64,000 nucleotides of DNA from Thermosipho ferrireducens. Its GTDB lineage: Bacteria > Thermotogota > Thermotogae > Thermotogales > Fervidobacteriaceae. A program made the position numbers and the translations under genes. The notes beneath the pieces are model-generated. The model was not told where the DNA came from. It made no database searches and was given only the letters and a program-made list of their open reading frames with translations. Of the stretch, positions 34,480 to 43,570 are shown in pieces. The stretch's first letter is position 1, and each line of letters starts with the position of its first letter. The stretch lies in contig NZ_CP071446.1 in the NCBI RefSeq assembly GCF_017358165.1, positions 1,240,001 through 1,304,000 on the forward strand, read 5' to 3'.

Positions 34480-35479
34480 TCAAATATTTAGTTCCTTTAA
34501 AATCCTTTCCAGTCTCCGCTTCACCCTTTTATCGTCTTCGCACCAGTATGCCAGAAGCGTAGGCTGGATCTTGAGTCTGTACTTTTTTGCAAAAACACTT
34601 ACCGGCTCTGGTCCTTTCACCCTTATACCAAACCTTACACTATCATACCGCCCGTAATTTCTCAAAAACCTGTCCATTAAATTCCTGTCGTGTTCGTCAA
34701 GTTCTATGTATCTCTGGACAAATTCCCTCAGTCTCTTTATTTCCATCCTATCTATCGCTTTTCTCACCACCGCCTTCCGCCCTTCCACGTATGGATGAGC
34801 CTCAACCATCTCTACCACAAATTCCTTTGTTTCATATCTCTTTGACATGTATTTTCCAAATTCTTCAACATTTTTGAGCAGTTCGTACGCTGTTTTGAAT
34901 TTATCCTTTCTTGACAGATAGAACTTTTCTCTTCCAACTTGCGCCATGTACGTTGATATAAAAAGTAGCTTTCTTTCAAAGTGAGGCAGGTTTTCTAACT
35001 TTCTTACTGATTTATCAAATTTTTCTTCAAGTTCCGTTTTTATCAGCTCGTTGTAGATTGGGGATGGTACTTCAATGTCTACTACTTTTTTCATTATTAT
35101 CTTTTTCAACGTATTTCCTCGCACTTTCTTGGTTTTTCCTGTAAGTATATCGCATATTCCTTTCATACTGACGTTTTTTCCTCGGTAAGATTTCAAAACC
35201 TTTCTGAGGTATTTTCTAAGTTCTTCTGTGTTTTCATATGATGAAACCCTGTAATCTGTTATCATTTTTTTGGCTTTTTCAAAAAGTTTAAAATACCTTT
35301 CCGGTCCAGATAAGGTTGTGATGACTTTTGCAGTACGTGATATAGAAAAAAGAAACAGAAGATCTATTTCAATCGCGAACAGAGTATCAAGGGAGCCGAA
35401 CAGATTACCCGGTGTCTCCCGGTAGTATCCAAGCCAGTACACTGCTTTTTGGGAAATGGAATAAGCCCAGAGTTGGTGG
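34480..35479 (-). pseudogene. 3' part of an unrecognised gene split by the IS21-family element
   Basis: Encodes the C-terminal ~333 residues of a 527-residue protein whose first part is at 37615-38198. It is rich in charged helices (KLENLPHFERKLLFISTYMA, YETKEFVVEMVEAHPYVEG) and ends in a basic segment (CEDDKRVKRRLERILKELNI). I recognise no domain. The fragment now opens in frame from the IS end (an in-frame start lies at 35535 inside the element), so a truncated product is possible. It reads well as coding sequence with no internal stops, which implies a recent interruption. Confidence 0.8.
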
Positions 35480-35543
35480 ACATCTGTAAAAGTCAAGATA
35501 AAAATGCATAAAAAAGGGAAAATAATAATGGACAAAAAAAGTA

Positions 35544-36305
35544 TTATTGCTTAGAAGAATTAGAGAAAAATTCGAGTTTTTCCTTTAATCTATATGATTC
35601 ACCTTTAATTGATATTACGTGGGAATGATGCAGTAGTCTATCCAGGATTGCTTGAGCCAGGACAGGGGATCCAAATATTTCACTCCACTCTGAAAACGGT
35701 GTATTGGTTGTTATTATCGTTGAATGTTTTTCATATCTTTTTGAGATTAACTGGAAGAATATATTTGCACCATCTTTATCTATTGGTAAATATCCTATTT
35801 CATCTATTATTAATACTTTGTATTTTGCGAAGTGTTTTAGTCTTACTTCTAATCTATTTTCTTTTAAAGCCTTTTTCAATTGAGCTATTAATTCTTGAAA
35901 ATGTATAAAATATGTTGAGTATCTATGTTTTGCACATTCAATTCCCAATGAAACAGCAAGATGCGTTTTACCAACTCCTGGTGTACCTACAAATAATATA
36001 TTTTCATTATTTTCCACAAATCTTAAGCTTTTTAAATCTAAGATTTGTTGTTTATTTATTCCAGGTTGAAAATCAAAGTCAAAATCTTCTATTCCTTTCA
36101 AAAAAGGAAAATTAGCAACTTTTACCATTGAAGCAATAGCTCTTTTTCTCTTTGCTTTTAACTCTAATTCACTTAATTCATATAATGCTTCTACTATGCT
36201 TTTTTCTTCATTATTTATAAGGGTTATATATTTATCCAGATTATTTTTCATATTTACCAGATTCAATTCTTCCAGATTGTTTTGTAATTTTATATAAACA
36301 TTCAT
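35544..36305 (-). CDS. istB: IS21-family helper ATPase IstB
   Basis: A 253-residue DnaC-like AAA+ protein required with IstA for transposition. Walker A GTPGVGKTHLAV near 107 and Walker B LIIDEIGYLP near 168, followed by the ITTNTPFSEW sensor block. The ATG overlaps the end of istA (coupled translation). Length normal, no disruption. Confidence 0.95.
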   Translation of the reverse strand: MNVYIKLQNNLEELNLVNMKNNLDKYITLINNEEKSIVEALYELSELELKAKRKRAIASMVKVANFPFLKGIEDFDFDFQPGINKQQILDLKSLRFVENNENILFVGTPGVGKTHLAVSLGIECAKHRYSTYFIHFQELIAQLKKALKENRLEVRLKHFAKYKVLIIDEIGYLPIDKDGANIFFQLISKRYEKHSTIITTNTPFSEWSEIFGSPVLAQAILDRLLHHSHVISIKGESYRLKEKLEFFSNSSKQ

Positions 36306-37516
36306 ACATTTCCCTCCTGCAAGAATTTATCCAGATTTTTTAAATTATTCTCACATACTTCTTTTAATTCTTCGCCGCTTTTTATATGCTTTCTCATTAA
36401 TGCCATATAATGGTTATTAAGATAATTAATTTTTTTACCTGTTATTTCGTGTACTGCTATTAACTCTGTGATATAATACACATAGATGTAGTTCTCATTG
36501 ATTTTTAAATTAACTATTTTTCCTATGTATTCTGGTGGAACGGAGTATTTATTCCCTTTGTAGTATATCAATGAATCTTTTTGGACTTTAACTTTGACAG
36601 AATAATCTACATATGATTCAATGATATGTCTTTTTGGTAGTGGGAATAAATACTCCTTTTCTTTTTGAAACAACAACAGTGGTGGAACATTAGTTGCTTG
36701 ATTTATTCGTGTGTTGACTTTTTTATTTATCCTTCTGATTATATCCTTTAATTCTTCCTCACTTTCAAAAGCGTAATTATATGCTAATAACCAATTTAAA
36801 AATTTATTTGCTGATTCTACTTTCCCTTTGGTATATGAGTGCTTTGGCTTACATAATTTAATTTTAAACCCAAAATCTTTCGCAAAAGCTTTCATCTTGT
36901 TGTTTATTTTTCTACCGTTTTCGGTAATATCTACAACAGATTTCATATTGTCGAATAGTATTTCTTGAGGAACACCACCTGTAGCTTTAAATGCGTTGAT
37001 TAAACATTCAAAAATATCTTGTTGTGTTTTGCTTTGTCTGTATTCAAAGTAACAGTATCTTGAATATCCCAATTTGTAATTAAATACATTTACTACAAAT
37101 TCTTCACCACTTTTTGAATGTAATCTCATATTTTCTTTCCAATCTACTTGAGCTTGAATACCAGGTAAAGTTTCAAACCTCGGGTATCCTTTAGATTTTT
37201 TCTCAGCTCTCAACCCCTTCCTTTTTACATATTTCCTAAAGTTCGAATATGTCCCAATTACATCTCCTTCTTCATCTCTCAATCTTTCATATGCCGCTCT
37301 AATTGTAATTCCTTTAATTGACATTAACATTGCTATCTTTCCAAAATATTTATCCAGCTTACTGGGTTTGTTTCTGGTTTTAGGCTTTCCCTGATAACCT
37401 TCCCAATACTTCTTTACAGTTCTTCTATCTATCCCATATATCCTTGCCAGTTCAGAAAAGTTAGGTTTCAAATTCATCCCCCTTAACATTTGCAAATGTT
37501 GTTTGATTTTCTCCAT
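36302..37516 (-). CDS. istA: IS21-family transposase IstA
   Basis: A 404-residue DDE transposase. N-terminal helix-turn-helix (FSELARIYGIDRRTVKKYW), then catalytic aspartate in QAQVDWKEN, second aspartate in ILFDNMKSVV and glutamate in KGKVESANKFLNW. The ATG at 37516 (MEKIKQHLQML) follows a GGAGGAGGGAT site; reading frames starting at 37561 lie in the terminal repeats. Confidence 0.94.
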   Translation of the reverse strand: MEKIKQHLQMLRGMNLKPNFSELARIYGIDRRTVKKYWEGYQGKPKTRNKPSKLDKYFGKIAMLMSIKGITIRAAYERLRDEEGDVIGTYSNFRKYVKRKGLRAEKKSKGYPRFETLPGIQAQVDWKENMRLHSKSGEEFVVNVFNYKLGYSRYCYFEYRQSKTQQDIFECLINAFKATGGVPQEILFDNMKSVVDITENGRKINNKMKAFAKDFGFKIKLCKPKHSYTKGKVESANKFLNWLLAYNYAFESEEELKDIIRRINKKVNTRINQATNVPPLLLFQKEKEYLFPLPKRHIIESYVDYSVKVKVQKDSLIYYKGNKYSVPPEYIGKIVNLKINENYIYVYYITELIAVHEITGKKINYLNNHYMALMRKHIKSGEELKEVCENNLKNLDKFLQEGNV

Positions 37517-37614
37517 CTTTGGTATCCCTCCTCCCAAAGGAAGGATACCATTTATGTACATTTTTGTGCATTTTTATTTTCCTCTTTTTGTCCATCTGTA
37601 TTTTACCATTTACA

Positions 37615-38198
37615 ACATCTTTTATATCCCATGCAAGATCGTTGAGAGAACTAACGATTCCAGATGGGTGAGGGATGGTTCTGGACAATCTGTACGCTTG
37701 TATGTAATGGTGTACTGTGGCGGACAATTTTCCCGGATTTACATACTTTCGCGCCTGCGCGAGATGTAAAAACGCAAGTGTTGCATCGTCGAGTTCACAC
37801 CTGTTCCCCCACAACCGAACGTTTCTCGCCGGCTCCAACCCACTCGCTTCGATGTTTATTAAAATGTTAACTACACTGTTTCTTGCTCGCTTCGACATTT
37901 TAGGAAGCTCTCTCTTAAGGTATCTATAAAGCTGTGTATCTACATTTCCGACACTTTTCGAAAAAAACAGCTTATTTGCAAGAAGTAGATACCTGACCGT
38001 ATTAGAATTGCACTTTCTCAGACATCTGTCTATTTCACGGAGTGCTTTGTTGAAATCACCTTTCCATACGTATTTGAGCACAAGAGAGAAAGAGCACCAG
38101 ATATTCGAGCTGGGGTTTTCAAGAAAATAATTCACAACTGGAAGAGAAAAGGCTCCATATTTGAAAACAGCTTTCAAACCTTCTGGAATTTTCTTCAT
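37615..38198 (-). pseudogene. 5' part of an unrecognised gene split by the IS21-family element
   Basis: Encodes the N-terminal ~194 residues of the interrupted gene, from ATG 38198 (AGGAGG site) to the junction at DIKDV. Joining it to 35479 across one ACATC copy gives AWDIKD-VHQLWAY with the frame preserved; the total is 1584 nt or 527 residues plus stop. The segment is helical with a repeat-like look (YVWKGDFNKALREIDRCLRK, FLHLAQARKYVNPGKL) that resembles tetratricopeptide helices. It is divergent from the peptide locus, so a regulatory role for that locus is plausible but unproven. Confidence 0.82.
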
Positions 38199-38218
38199 TT
38201 TTGTTTCCTCCTGCTATA

Positions 38219-38326
38219 GTTATACCATAAAAAATCAAATTGTTTGAAACCCCACAAAAATTGCATACACCAAACCCGCATGGATAGCGGGTTTGAAAGC
38301 CTGTAAAAATTGAAAACCATATAGGG
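38219..38326. promoter_or_regulatory. divergent control region of the peptide locus, with upstream element copy 1
   Basis: Holds an extended -10 (TGGTATAAC, 38219-38227) directed at the interrupted gene and, on the other side, the element beginning ACAAAAATTGCATAC at 38254. The element includes a perfect 9-bp dyad CAAACCCGC (38271-38279) / GCGGGTTTG (38287-38295) with a 7-nt centre, then TTGAAA. A diverged copy lies at 42908-42970. TTGAAA (38311-38316) and TATAGG 16 nt on could be the plus-strand promoter. Confidence 0.55.
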
Positions 38327-38356
38327 TATGGTATAGGTAAAAACGGGGGTGAAGGA

Positions 38357-38491
38357 ATGAGAAAGACAGTGATGGTGTTTTTTTTTTTGATGTTTTTGCT
38401 TTTAGCAACGTTTGTTTTTGCAGATAAAACAGATGCGGGCGATAGCACGCATGGCCAAACCTCTGTGATTGAGCAGCGTGTTGATGGGTAG
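38357..38491 (+). CDS. 44-residue peptide with signal sequence
   Basis: Starts ATG 38357 shortly after a GGGGGTGAAGGA site. Residues 1-22 are a clear signal peptide (MRKTV, hydrophobic FFFLMFLLLATFVF, then Ala before Asp23). The remaining 22 residues begin DKTDAGDSTHGQTSV, are polar, and lack cysteine. It is the first gene after element copy 1. Eleven T in a row (38378-38388) encode part of the hydrophobic core, a slippage-prone tract. A secreted signal or structural peptide is plausible; I know no family for it. Confidence 0.6.
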   Translation: MRKTVMVFFFLMFLLLATFVFADKTDAGDSTHGQTSVIEQRVDG

Positions 38492-38810
38492 TGTAAAACT
38501 TCCACCGGTGGGAAAGGTGCAAAGAAGGGAAAGAGGTGAAAACTCATTTTATTAAATATGCTGTGGAGTTCGATGGTATTTCAATGCTTCTTGGTTAACG
38601 AAATCAACTTGTTAAAATTGTCAAGTAGTGGTAATGAAAGCAACACGTTTAACAGTCGGAACATGAACATCACCTAAAAGAGTTATACGTGGTATGGAAG
38701 TTTTAGACATATCGGAGATGTGCAAAAATTTGTATGATATAGTGTTCTTGAAACAGCGTTGAATTCCATCTCTCGATATCAAGAGAAACCTTAGAAAAGG
38801 AGGGATTTTT
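38492..38810 (+). other. leader region of the 30-residue precursor, no supported gene
   Basis: No frame in this stretch has both a ribosome site and a convincing product. It contains an extended -10-like TGATATAGT near 38735-38743 and an imperfect 18-bp dyad (TCTCTCGATATCAAGAGA, 38769-38786, 16 of 18 positions symmetric) 25 nt before the precursor start. The precursor may have its own promoter here. Confidence 0.4.
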
Positions 38811-38903
38811 ATGTTAAGAGGATATTATTCAATTTCTAAAAAAAGTGTTTCTTTAAACAAGTGGTGTGAAACAACTATATTTGTTTGTGGTGTATTCTGG
38901 TGA
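38811..38903 (+). CDS. 30-residue RiPP precursor peptide (sactipeptide/ranthipeptide-like)
   Basis: ATG 38811 follows an ideal AAAGGAGG site (38796-38803). The peptide has a basic, leader-like N-half (MLRGYYSISKKSVSLN) and a hydrophobic C-half with two cysteines, C19 and C26 (KWCETTIFVCGVFW), directly before a radical SAM/SPASM enzyme gene with an RRE domain. Length and Cys spacing recall T. maritima TM1316, a 31-residue peptide strongly made in stationary phase and compared with subtilosin A. Thioether cross-linking of the cysteines is expected but inferred. No GG cleavage motif is seen. Confidence 0.75.
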   Translation: MLRGYYSISKKSVSLNKWCETTIFVCGVFW

Positions 38904-38911
38904 TACATAAT

Positions 38912-38945
38912 ACCCTTGGGGAGTTGTTTCCCCAAGGGGTTTATA
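38912..38945 (+). terminator. hairpin between precursor and maturation enzyme
   Basis: A 10-bp stem (CCCTTGGGGA 38913-38922, TCCCCAAGGG 38929-38938, 6-nt loop) followed by GTTTATAATAAT. The weak T tract suggests a leaky terminator or an RNA-stabilising hairpin that lets the precursor be made in excess over the enzyme. Confidence 0.75.
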
Positions 38946-38971
38946 ATAATCTAAAGGAAGGAGGAGTATAT

Positions 38972-41900
38972 ATGTATGAAAATATATTCCCTATCGTTTC
39001 CCCTAATTTAGATATTATCAAAACAAATAAAGGAGCAATATTAAAAATCGATAGAATGCCCAATATTGTATTTGTTTCTCAAACTGAGGCTTTTTTTTAG
39101 CTTTATCTGATGGGATTCACTCTTTGAAAGAGATTGGAGAAATTTTTTCAGAACTTTATTCAATAGAATTTGACTGTTTGATAGATGATTTAAAGTTTTT
39201 AGTAAACAAGTATAAAGAAGCTAATATTTTAAGCATTTTACATGAAAGATTAAGTAGTTCGTTTAAAAAGAATTGCGAAGAGTTTATTTTTATTCCTGAA
39301 AATGATTCAACAAAATTAATACCTATGAAAATCACATCTATTGCTTTTGCAATTACAAATTTTTGTCCACTTAATTGCAATTATTGTTATGGAAATTTCG
39401 GTAAAATTAAGCGAGATTTTCTCCCAGCAGAAGTTGTTAAAGGTGTAATTATAGATGCAGGAAAGTTAGGTAATATAAGGTACGTTTCTATTACTGGTGG
39501 CGAACCATTAATGCACGAGGAATTGCCAGAAATAATAGAATTCTTAGAAGATAGAAATATTTTCTATGAAATATCTACAAAAGGTGTTTTCATAAATGAA
39601 ACCCTAATTAAGAAACTTAAAAAATCGGGACTGAGAGAGATTCAGATTAGCTTAGATTCAATGAATCCTAATACATGGGCCAAAATTACAAGGATGTCGG
39701 TAAGTGAATTCAAAGAAGTTATTGAAACTATGTTATTGCTAAAAAAGTATCATATAAACATAAGAATACGAATTACTCTATCAAAGGATAATTTTGAAGA
39801 TTTAGATTATACTTTAAAAGAGCTTCGCTTTTTCAATCCTGAAACCATTAGAATTTCTTCGCTTATCCCAGTTGGCAGAGGAAGTGTAGAAAACACATTG
39901 GACAAACTTGAAACGTTAGAAGCGTTAAATGTTATTAAAAAGTATGAACAAATATACAATGTGCAAATTGGAATATATCGGTACGTGTCCGATGCATTTT
40001 GCGGCGGTTTAAAAACTTCTCTTTATATAACACCCAATGGTGACGTGTATCCGTGTGATATGTTATATGGGCTTGAAAATGATTCGCTTTTCAAGATAGG
40101 AAACATTTATGAAAATAGTATAAGGGAAATTTGGTTTTCTGAAAAAGCAAATAATTTTAGAACTAATAAAAATATAGTAAAATGTCAATCTTGTGAAGAT
40201 TTTACAATTTGTGGTGGTGGTTGTAGAGCTGTCGCATATAGTTATTTCAAGGATTTTTATGAACCTGTTCCTTATTGTTCTCGAATATATATGGGAACGA
40301 AGGAGAGGTTTTTAGTTGGAAATAACGAAGTAAAAGGGGGAATTGAGATGGAAGAGAACAAAAGTGTAAAACGCTTTTTAAGGACATTTTTTAGAAGATA
40401 TTGGAAACGTCAAGTTGTCACATCAATTCTGGTTATAATCGAGTCCGGTGGAGGAATTCTTATACCCCTTGTGTTTAAGCAAATCATAGATAAAGCCATT
40501 CCGTCAGGCGATTATAAAATATTACTAAATTATATCTTAGGATTAATGGGGTTATTGCTTCTTGCCACAATTTTTAGTTATTTGGGAGAAGTTTGGTTCG
40601 AGTTTACAGCTATTAAGGTAAAAAAAGATTTGCAAAGAGAAATTATAAATAAGTTTATGAGAGTTCCTTTTAAATATTTTATGACAAATAAAGTAGGAGA
40701 ACAGGTTTCAAAGTTAATCTCTGATATAGAACAGGTTGGTATTTTGGCTTCTCAGTTTTTTCCAATAATATTTTTAGCACTTACACAGATTTTCGGAATA
40801 TTAGCAATAATGTTTTTCCTCAACTGGAAACTTGCATTGTTACCTATCACTCTTATGGTAATATCATGGTTCGGAATTATGATTGTAAACGTAAAAGCAG
40901 AGAAACTTAGTCAAAAGGAACGAAAGAAATTTGGAGTTTTATCAGACGTGATATTAAATATTCTAGAAAACATAAAAATACTGAAAATTATACATCCATT
41001 AAATTGGATAAATAAACATTTTGAGAAATTTCAAGAGGATTATATTCAAACTAAGAAAACTTTTACAAGGGTAATAAAACTTGCAGCGGTTTTGGGAAAT
41101 ACGATATTCGGAATAATTGCATTAGCACTTTTTTGGTATGGTGGGTATCAAATTTTAAATGGGAAGATGACTTTAGGTGTATTGATAGCATTCTGGGCGT
41201 ATATGCAAGCACTGGCAAACCCTATACAACTTTTAATGCAAGCAAATGTTACTTATAGAAGTTCGTATGGAAGTATATCAAGGATTAAGGAAATACTCGA
41301 ATATGAGGAGGAAAAAACGGAAAAAGAGGAAATTGCGGATATGAAAATAAGGAAATTAGAATTAAAAAATATTAAGTTTAAATATAAAGAAAAAGAAATA
41401 TTGAAAGGGATAAATATGAAACTAGAAGAAGGAAAAAGCTATGCTCTTGTGGGAAAGAGCGGAGTAGGGAAAACCACTACTTTAAATATATTAACAGGTT
41501 TATATAGATCAAGTAGCGGGAACATAATTGTTAATGATAAGGATTGGACTGAGAAGTTAACAATTCTTAGAAAAAAGATAGGTTTTGTGGAGCAGTCTCC
41601 AGTGTTTTTCAAGTATTGTACTATAAAGGAAAATATACTAATGGGAAGAGATATTCCAGATGAGGAATTTGAAAAAATTATCAATGAAACAGGTGTAAGT
41701 AGATTTGTGGAGAACTTTCCTCAAAAGATTGATACACTTCTCGGGGAAGTTAATATCTCAGGTGGACAAAAACAACTTCTTGCACTTGCAAGGGCATTAG
41801 TAGGGACTCCGGATGTATTAGTGCTCGATGAATTTACTGCAAACGTCGATTCAAAAACAGAGGAAGAAATTCATAAAATACTTCACAATGAAAGAGAAAA

Positions 41901-42066
41901 AGGAAAAATAATCTTGTTTGTTGCACATAGACTCTCAACAATACAAAATAGTGACAAGGTGTTTTTACTTGATGATGGAAAAATAGAAGCAGAAGGTCCG
42001 CATGGCGAATTGATAAATGCTTCTGAAAAATATAGGAAATTAATTTCTTTGCAGATGATAAGTTAA
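38972..42066 (+). pseudogene. RRE-radical SAM-SPASM peptide maturase fused to ABC exporter; frameshifted in a T8 tract
   Basis: From ATG 38972 (GGAAGGAGGAG site) the frame reads MYENIFPIVSPNLDII to a stop just after eight T (39091-39098). One more T would continue it as EAFFLALSDGIHSLKEIGE, completing a PqqD-like recognition domain. Then come the radical SAM motif CPLNCNYC (from 39364), a SPASM Cys set (40003-40280, including CQSC and CGGGC), and in the same frame a six-helix ABC exporter with Walker A GKSGVGKTT, signature ISGGQKQ and Walker B VLVLDEF. It has no C39 peptidase. AAAAGGGGG and ATG 40348 could start the exporter separately. Apart from the T tract both enzymes look intact. Confidence 0.8.
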
Positions 42067-42235
42067 ACGGAAGAAAGAATTGAAGCAGGGAAATTAAAAG
42101 TAAAAGATCTTGCATTTGGCTACGACGAAGAGAAAATCCTTGATGTGATAAGCTTCAAGGTGAACGAGGGAGAAATGGTGCAATAGCAGGCAGAAACGGA
42201 AGCGGGGAAAGTAGCTTAATGAAAATAGTGGTGAG
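42067..42235 (+). pseudogene. fragment of a second ABC exporter ATPase domain
   Basis: Directly after the exporter stop, one frame reads EAGKLKVKDLAFGYDEEKIL and on to GEMV. After a one-base shift at the CAATAG it continues AIAGRNGSGESSLMKIVVRLF. This is the beginning of an ABC ATPase domain with the Walker A lysine changed to glutamate (GSGES). Both the membrane part and the rest of the ATPase are missing, so it is a deletion remnant. Confidence 0.8.
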
Positions 42236-42249
42236 GTTGTTTAAAAGTA

Positions 42250-42420
42250 GTGCAGAGCAGAGTTTTTCAGGGAGTATTGGGAGGCCTTGTTGGAATAGCA
42301 ACGTATAAAATTACAACGTCTCCATTAGCTGCTCTTGCAATCGGTTTTGGAGTGGGATTTACCAGTTATGATATTAACAATTTTATTCTTAAAGTTGTAG
42401 ATTATGCTCATGAGAAGTGA
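42250..42420 (+). pseudogene. truncated membrane peptide, paralogue A
   Basis: A 56-codon frame from GTG 42250 (ribosome site weak) with a glycine-rich hydrophobic middle (GVLGGLVGIATYKITTSPLA) and a C-terminus GFTSYDINNFILKVVDYAHEK. The last part matches the frame-corrected end of the gene at 43100 (LENFMMKAVDYARGR). It lacks the N-terminal part present there and abuts the ABC fragment, so its 5' end was probably lost in the same deletion. It may still be translated. Confidence 0.5.
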
Positions 42421-42883
42421 AAAAGTGCAAAAATTTTTAAAAGTTTTATTAAAACCATCCGATATGTTTTACGAAACGTTCATTGATGTAAAAAATGGAG
42501 TCTGGACTTATGTGTTGATGACTATCTTCGATACCATCTACCTTTACAAAGTTGCGGATATGATAGTTCCGCTTTATTATGATAAGCCATCATTGTCATT
42601 CACAGCTAAGTTTGTAATTCTATTAATAGTACTTTACATGGTTATTCCATTTGAAATGCACAAAAAGGATTTCAGGGACAAAGAAAAAGGACTGACAGGT
42701 TCGTTGTTTTTTCTGTCACTGTACTTTGAAGTTGGGAATTTTATGAACATTCACATTTTTCTCATAGGTGGAAGAGGAGATATTGTGTACAGGATCGTGG
42801 GGTACGCAGTGTATATGGGTATAGTGATAGTGATAAATCCATTGAATAAGAGAAAGATGTTTTTTAGATTTAAAAGGAATTAA
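42410..42883 (+). CDS. small multi-pass membrane protein of the peptide locus
   Basis: About 157 residues with four or five hydrophobic segments (for example FVILLIVLYMVIPFEM and GYAVYMGIVIVINPL) and a basic end (KRKMFFRFKRN). It overlaps the end of paralogue A and has no ribosome site of its own, suggesting translational coupling. Start at ATG 42410 or 42404. I recognise no family. By position between peptide-like genes, immunity or export help are possibilities, without direct evidence. Confidence 0.6.
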   Translation: MRSEKVQKFLKVLLKPSDMFYETFIDVKNGVWTYVLMTIFDTIYLYKVADMIVPLYYDKPSLSFTAKFVILLIVLYMVIPFEMHKKDFRDKEKGLTGSLFFLSLYFEVGNFMNIHIFLIGGRGDIVYRIVGYAVYMGIVIVINPLNKRKMFFRFKRN

Positions 42884-42907
42884 AAGTATTCAATACAACC
42901 TTAACAT

Positions 42908-42970
42908 ACAAAAATTGCATACTTTAAACTGCTATGAATAGCTGATTTCGAGATCCGTAATACTTGAAAA
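42908..42970 (+). promoter_or_regulatory. upstream element copy 2 of the peptide locus
   Basis: Matches 38254-38316 without gaps; I count about 45 of 63 identical positions, including the full ACAAAAATTGCATAC box, the ATGGATAGC/ATGAATAGC centre and TTGAAAA. It precedes the gene at 43100. The dyad is partly kept (GCTAT-GA-ATAGC, 42931-42942). Shared regulation of both transcription units is the simplest reading. Confidence 0.6.
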
Positions 42971-43099
42971 TCGAGAAGATAAGTAAAATTTTATTTTAAA
43001 AGAATGGGAGAAAAGAAACATCTGAAACTCTATGGTTGTGGGAAAAGATATGGTCTAAAAACATTAAGATTGTAAACAACACATATGGGGTGAGGAATT

Positions 43100-43432
43100 A
43101 TGGATAAAGCGTATGCGCTAACAGCAAACGATGGAACTGGAAGGGTACACGATGGATATTACAACAAAGGAATTGCAAGAAAAATAGATGAGATTAATAC
43201 AAAATCCTGGCAGGCTGATAGGAAAGTGGTTTCCTCAAAGTACTCGAATTGGATAAGAGCAGGAATATTGGGAGCTTTAACATGGACGGTTAGTGGAGGA
43301 CCGATAGCAGGCTTTTTGTTGGAGCAGGTAGTGCAATGCTTGACGATTGTTTAGAGAATTTTATGATGAAGGCGGTGGATTATGCGCGTGGGAGATAGTG
43401 CATTTCTCAAACCCGGAGTTTGGTTTGTTGAG
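43100..43432 (+). pseudogene. membrane peptide, paralogue B, frameshifted
   Basis: ATG 43100 follows GGTGAGG. The frame encodes a polar N-terminus (MDKAYALTANDGTGRVHDGY) and a glycine-rich hydrophobic part (AGILGALTWTVSGGPIAGF), then stops at 43354. Adding one T to the T5 tract at 43313-43317 continues it as VGAGSAMLDDCLENFMMK and VDYARGR, which matches paralogue A. The double-glycine/alanine hydrophobic core resembles class II bacteriocins or holin-like peptides, but no family is certain. Coordinates include the corrected end near 43399; the tail to 43432 is the start of the next remnant. Confidence 0.5.
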
Positions 43433-43570
43433 AGGAAGCGCCTTTGTGGATAAAGATCGTTGTGATGACAATAGGAGTTTATTTGTCAGCTGCGATGGGG
43501 ATAGTTTACAAAAGAAAAAAAGTGATCAGGAGCAGGCAGGATGGAGCAAATAAGAATATCTTATACACTG
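43382..43570 (+). pseudogene. degraded single-span membrane protein remnant
   Basis: One frame from ATG 43382 reads MRVGDSAFLKPGVWFVERKR and stops. Another resumes as WIKIVVMTIGVYLSAAMGIV followed by basic YKRKKVIRSRQDG and ends near 43582. A net frameshift near 43441 separates them. It appears to be a small membrane protein that followed paralogue B. Low certainty. Confidence 0.35.

Follow-up and report, generated by a model that had tools for sequence, protein, structure and literature searches.

Remains of a RiPP operon of the RRE/radical-SAM-SPASM/ABC-exporter type in Thermosipho ferrireducens, probably inactive today

Does a run of small and broken reading frames in Thermosipho ferrireducens represent a genuine RiPP operon, and, if so, what would it have made and is it still at work? 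The frames lie in a 64,000-nucleotide stretch of the forward strand of contig NZ_CP071446.1 (positions 1,240,001 to 1,304,000), hereafter the window. The host genome is a single contig of 1,982,543 bp, and no genome of the same genus was in our comparison set. A first-pass annotation, made from the letters alone, had described a RiPP-type locus in decay, and we found each of the elements that it named, the precursor by an independent profile, the enzyme by Pfam domains, and the exporter. In order, the parts are a divergent regulator cut by an IS21 element, a 44-aa secreted peptide, a 30-aa precursor, a hairpin, the enzyme, the exporter, and the remains of a second cassette.

34480-38198, minus strand: divergent regulator with TPR and Cro-type HTH, 527 aa with the IS skipped (N-terminal part 37615-38198, C-terminal part 34480-35484)
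35485-37614, minus strand: IS21-family insertion, 2,130 bp (istA 36302-37561, istB 35544-36305)
38215-38334, no strand: conserved divergent promoter, with TATAGTTATACC..AAAAAATCAAATTGTT at 38215-38244 on the regulator side and AAAATTGAAAACCATATAGGGTATGGTAT at 38306-38334 on the operon side
38357-38491, plus strand: 44-aa secreted peptide, intact, a signal sequence followed by DKTDAGDSTHGQ..., from the regulator-linked peptide set
38811-38903, plus strand: 30-aa RiPP precursor MLRGYYSISKKSVSLNKWCETTIFVCGVFW, from the ORF, alignment, and independent profile
38913-38938, plus strand: hairpin between precursor and enzyme, -24.6 kcal/mol, z -3.95
38972-39100, plus strand: N-terminal part of the PqqD-like RRE, ending in a premature stop after a T8 run (39091-39098)
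39100-40347, plus strand: remainder of the RRE, radical SAM, and SPASM, with a second frameshift at 40286-40292 and the frame joined to the exporter
40348-42066, plus strand: ABC exporter with fused transmembrane and ATPase domains, intact, from domain and identity searches
42067-42230, plus strand: fragment of a second ABC ATPase domain, partly out of frame, from the translation read by eye
42220-42420, plus strand: copy of a ~97-aa peptide family, N-truncated, from family comparison
42404-42883, plus strand: 159-aa hydrophobic, probably membrane protein, from by-eye likeness in sequence and setting to L024:11265-11720
43100-43398, plus strand: second copy of the ~97-aa peptide family, frameshifted near its C terminus, from family comparison

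Judged from its sequence, 34480-43400 is a genuine RiPP operon of the RRE/radical-SAM-SPASM/ABC-exporter type. The best explanation of its present state, which we regard as highly probable, is that the operon was formerly complete and is inactivated today.

The 30-residue Cys-x6-Cys precursor proposed earlier was recovered with a profile built without it. This profile matched 38763-38900 with an E value of 1.1e-9, against 0.17 for the next best of 1,732 six-frame segments of the window, making the 30-aa ORF its sole significant match in the six frames. The consensus of the family reads MLKGYYxIxK...CxxCxxAIVVCGxxW, and M1, L2, G4, Y6, C19, I23, C26, and W30 are invariant in an alignment of eight precursors. 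Across 103 Thermotogota genomes, a genome-wide search returned 12 strong matches (E < 1e-11), spread over eight genomes; the next match stood at 1e-3. All eight of these genomes carry an ortholog of the enzyme, a co-occurrence that was seeded from enzyme loci, although the genome-wide precursor search was independent of position. Genome G050, whose enzyme is closest to that of the window, has two small precursor ORFs beside it, MLKGYYLVNKSQDPILACAFCQNAIVVCGIVW and LLKGYYSISKTPIIASECYFCQGAIVVCAITW, and Mesotoga-type genomes likewise have two precursors each. No clear precursor of the family was found in G073, whose enzyme is diverged (26% identical), or in G100, whose enzyme is partial. The relatives sit in other families of the class, in genomes of Marinitoga, Petrotoga, and Mesotoga type. 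The precursor has no match among Pfam or NCBIfam models; by its alignments, this is a conserved family, yet one missing from the protein libraries that we searched.

The hairpin just downstream of the precursor has counterparts at the same position in most relatives: of the six loci of this family that were folded, five have one, with z scores of -2.4 to -6.8, and G074 has none. A hairpin in this place would hold precursor RNA above enzyme RNA.

As in RRE-dependent radical SAM RiPP systems, the short precursor gene is conserved next to an enzyme with a radical SAM core and a SPASM domain. The Pfam matches of the window's own copy (radical SAM, 5e-27; SPASM, 1e-16) bear out the radical SAM/SPASM assignment, whose failure in an HMM search had been named in advance as grounds for dropping it. 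The RRE that had been assigned to the enzyme stands for its orthologs but not directly for the window: PF05402 was detected in six of seven alignment members and missed only in the window's frame-broken copy. All orthologs keep the CxxxCxxC motif and the seven cysteines of the SPASM domain. The closest enzyme is that of G050 (43-44% identical), and a tree groups the window's enzyme with those of G050, G087, G091, G074, and G073 (support 100/100), apart from the TM1317-type clade (100/100). None of the NCBIfam models comes near its cut-off. Beyond Thermotogota, a pattern-seeded search, which also missed known orthologs, found no close homologs, and its longer matches were ~21 to 29% identical. 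Also, the diverged enzyme of G073 (L053:2248-5822) is accompanied not by an ABC exporter but by an MFS-like transporter, with the same kind of divergent regulator, at a locus that also holds a 50-aa ORF ending EEPWCHTAIVIW.

In intact relatives, the order is a divergent regulator, a small secreted peptide, one or two precursors of ~32 aa, the RRE-radical-SAM-SPASM enzyme, and the ABC exporter; G050, G087, G091, and Mesotoga-type genomes share the gene order of the window's locus, and G091 has the complete gene set. A homologous locus without the small precursor gene would have counted against the earlier reading. There is one such locus, in the family relative G007, but it is without the enzyme as well. 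The promoter, regulator, and exporter are kept there, the secreted peptide, precursor, and enzyme are absent, and the promoter lies directly upstream of the exporter, which reads as a joint deletion of precursor and enzyme and not as an enzyme left with no substrate.

The exporter was correctly called intact and is 88% identical to that of G007. With a dN of 0.066 and a dS of 0.75 between the two, it has evidently been under constraint during most of their divergence. No C39 peptidase domain was found in 40348-42066. Of the secreted or membrane peptides that had been proposed, the one at 38357-38491 is intact, and the ORFs at 42250 and 43100 belong to one family. This ~97-aa family (LTANDGTGR...HDGYYNK, with a glycine-rich hydrophobic C terminus) occurs in 2 of 103 Thermotogota genomes, the host's own and G014, with further members at L057:6434-6718, L024:9828-10121, and L024:10966-11268. 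In G014 the peptide is paired with a likely membrane protein of ~150 aa, and peptide and membrane protein together are, by appearance only, bacteriocin/immunity-like. Upstream of the second cassette, the stretch 42905-42990 is similar to 38260-38340 at the divergent promoter (AAAAATTGCATAC....TTGAAAA), as if duplicated.

Decay by frameshifts, truncation, and an insertion sequence had been read from the letters, and all three kinds of damage are there: two frameshifts in the enzyme, a truncated second cassette, and an IS21 element flanked by a 5-bp target duplication, ACATC (35480-35484 and 37615-37619). The insertion occupies 35485-37614, outside the span of 38199-43570 given to the locus. The ORFs 34480-35535 and 37461-38198 hold the two halves of one regulator gene, which becomes a continuous 527-aa frame once the IS21 is skipped, in accordance with the divergent regulator proposed earlier. 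In G017 (L157:4482-6469), from the same family, a related IS21 is inserted right where the regulator begins, as if the target had been hit repeatedly.

The first frame change in the enzyme falls in the T8 run at 39091-39098, inside the RRE. The second, in the TATATAT tract at 40286-40292, costs the enzyme its native tail and lets the reading run into the exporter, giving an apparent ORF of 980 aa. The expected tail, NEGEVFSWK followed by a stop (compare KEGELFIW in relatives), sits in another frame. A natural enzyme-exporter fusion is therefore ruled out by this tail and by the separate ORFs of the relatives, and a programmed frameshift at the T8 run is ruled out because the tract is not conserved. 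Enzyme copies are also interrupted in G092 and G102, both draft assemblies.

Could the enzyme nonetheless be alive, or the breaks be artefacts? Slippage of RNA polymerase on the T8 run might restore the frame, or the tract might act as a phase switch; it does lie within the part that encodes the RRE, and a T11 run, the longest homopolymer in the window, occurs in the gene of the secreted peptide. Yet G050 carries a T8 that is in frame at the corresponding codons, G087 and G091 are without the tract, and a second, unrelated frameshift together with the IS points to plain decay, so that we consider a living enzyme improbable. Similarly doubtful is the idea that the frameshifts are errors of sequencing or assembly in an operon that is intact except for its regulator. 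The small indels do fall in simple tracts (T8 and a TA repeat), but sequencing error cannot give an IS with a target duplication or a truncated second cassette, and neighboring ORFs are without such breaks. As had been stated of the genes around the region, the other ORFs of the window look unbroken, which makes the decay local. Past completeness and present inactivation thus remain our preferred account; with an IS21-cut regulator and two enzyme frameshifts, the modified peptide is probably no longer made in this strain.

What would the product of an intact copy be? Most likely, the RRE would bind the conserved N terminus of the precursor (MLKGYY), the SPASM enzyme would cross-link the C-terminal core CxxCxxAIVVCGxxW at its invariant cysteines, at the invariant final Trp, or at both, and the exporter would carry the product to the envelope. 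The first-pass annotation had foreseen a -4 Da form with two thioethers, which nothing supports specifically and which we treat as one option only. A sactipeptide or ranthipeptide with two thioethers from the Cys-x6-Cys pair is plausible, if short of probable. The SPASM domains of CteB and SkfB have seven cysteines; both proteins are matched by the enzyme profile, all seven cysteines are present here, and the two precursor cysteines are invariant. However, among solved structures PqqE is matched best (1.7e-30), before SkfB and CteB, and the final Trp of the precursors shows the same invariance as their cysteines. The maturase models for sactipeptides (AlbA, with 48 bits where the cut-off is 850; StsB, also far below) and for ranthipeptides of the SCIFF/PapB type (PapB, 63 to 81 bits against 340) likewise stay far under their cut-offs. 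A PqqE/MftC-like modification, either a carbon-carbon bond or an oxidative decarboxylation at the C-terminal CGxxW, is possible but rather unlikely. Mycofactocin precursors end in CGVY, of which the CGxxW terminus with its invariant Trp is reminiscent, and a mycofactocin maturase model matches at 1e-30 alongside the PqqE structure. Against this, every bit score is far under its cut-off (107 against 265 for the MftC-type model), and no mycofactocin partner genes were seen in the locus.

The regulator belongs to a family present in 57 of the 103 genomes. Scored in members other than the window's fragments, TPR and HTH were each detected in 4 of 14, giving the family the TPR plus DNA-binding HTH combination of RRNPP regulators; the Cro/C1-type HTH is central (about residues 283 to 343 of the profile) and not N-terminal. 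An adjoining small secreted peptide gene, again as in RRNPP systems, was found by a crude signal-peptide rule: a divergent ORF of 30 to 125 aa with a signal-peptide-like start faces 28 of 44 regulators (the distinct family members with enough upstream sequence) versus 27 of 325 control ORFs (Fisher, 5e-16, uncorrected for relatedness or locus choice). The peptides share a style (FADKTEAGNETHSW, FADRTDADNETHSW, FSDENNDDIYSTDSINP), and across three families the intergenic footprint consists of TATAGTTATACC..AAAAAATCAAATTGTT next to the regulator and AAAATTGAAAACCATATA next to the operon. A genome-wide regulon of the promoter element was rejected, as there is a single exact copy of the core, and matches with one mismatch are as frequent as in a reversed-pattern control. 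The T11 run (38378-38388) lies in the signal sequence of the window's peptide and is possibly a phase-variable tract.

This module adjoins the window's RiPP family in G091 and G092, and elsewhere TM1316-type, Cys-rich-precursor, split-RRE, and other SPASM loci. The Cys-rich precursors (MEFLN.PVV..K.YLSFCD...CD.C.N) lie beside SPASM enzymes in Thermotoga-/Thermosipho-type genomes (L022:5998-6213 and L024:1030-1293). The simplest reading of the module, and the one that we propose, would be a pheromone switch. That Thermotogota have a pheromone-type circuit of their own, regulator and secreted peptide with a conserved promoter, which switches a number of RiPP loci unrelated to each other, perhaps in stationary phase or at high density, is a speculation that we hold tentatively and think rather unlikely; alternatively, the secreted peptide might be a second product, or it might serve in immunity or delivery. 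If the circuit were real, the TM1316 locus would have TM1315 as its pheromone, and the window's locus the 38357-38491 peptide. The module links the TM1316 locus to others and places the TM1316 puzzle in a testable frame.

Taken together, we observe a precursor and maturase family that is outside the curated models searched and spans three Thermotogota families. The window's copy would be a fossil, but some members look intact and hence open to experiment.

Several known systems invite comparison. Sactipeptide-like clusters were mined earlier in Thermotogota, namely Tmel_0409 (PMC4289311) and Petrotoga mobilis Pmob_0674-0678 (PMC3132745). Both are radical SAM peptide loci of the same phylum, but the T. 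melanesiensis-type enzyme, at a locus equated by position only, falls in another clade, and the peptide proposed for P. mobilis has 197 aa and no Cys. Our literature searches found nothing combining Marinitoga, radical SAM, and peptide, and, for RRNPP with Thermotog-, nothing beyond a phage-plasmid review. RRNPP pairs (Rap, NprR, PlcR) share a TPR plus HTH regulator adjoining a tiny signal-peptide ORF, but differ from the present family in their N-terminal HTH, and the regulator has no significant match among solved structures. Subtilosin A (AlbA) and sactipeptide loci likewise unite a Cys-bearing precursor, a SPASM enzyme, and an ABC exporter in one operon, but no sequence kinship of the precursors was seen and the AlbA model scores low, as noted above. 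With PqqE/PqqD, the likeness lies in the enzyme, whose nearest solved structure by profile is PqqE, and in an RRE domain of PqqD type; here, however, the RRE is fused to the enzyme, the precursor is Cys-rich with a terminal Trp, an ABC exporter is present, and scores are far under the PqqE cut-off.

The closest comparison is with T. maritima TM1315-TM1319, which we take, by position, to be the G031 locus at ~1.325 Mb (L166:5052-9090). That locus holds a 79-aa secreted peptide, the 29-aa MNVLKRIANHSIPLGGCTNRSQRCAVVTP, a 442-aa SPASM enzyme, and ABC genes. TM1316 is reportedly 31 aa long, a length unmatched from the ATG used here, which leaves the assignment presumptive. Its regulator (L166:4415-4865) is broken into two short ORFs, with full-length paralogs elsewhere in the genome, and its post-precursor hairpin has a z score of -2.1. 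Work on TM1316 is cited in PMC13157175. The resemblance claimed by the first-pass annotation holds for the layout, with a secreted peptide, a Cys-x6-Cys precursor of ~30 aa, a SPASM enzyme, ABC genes, and a divergent regulator of the same family, but not for direct kinship to TM1316. The T. maritima-type precursor is PLGGCTNRSQRC, and the PLGGCxNRSQRC core of the TM1316/TM1317 type is absent from the window's precursor, both by alignment and by a search of the host's own genome (with a 29-aa query, weak alone). The T. maritima enzyme falls in a CefB-like clade outside which models and tree place the window's enzyme, and the T. maritima exporter is split into ATPase and permeases. By these comparisons, the window's locus is a parallel relative of the TM1316/TM1317-type pair, with a different precursor and a different enzyme clade.
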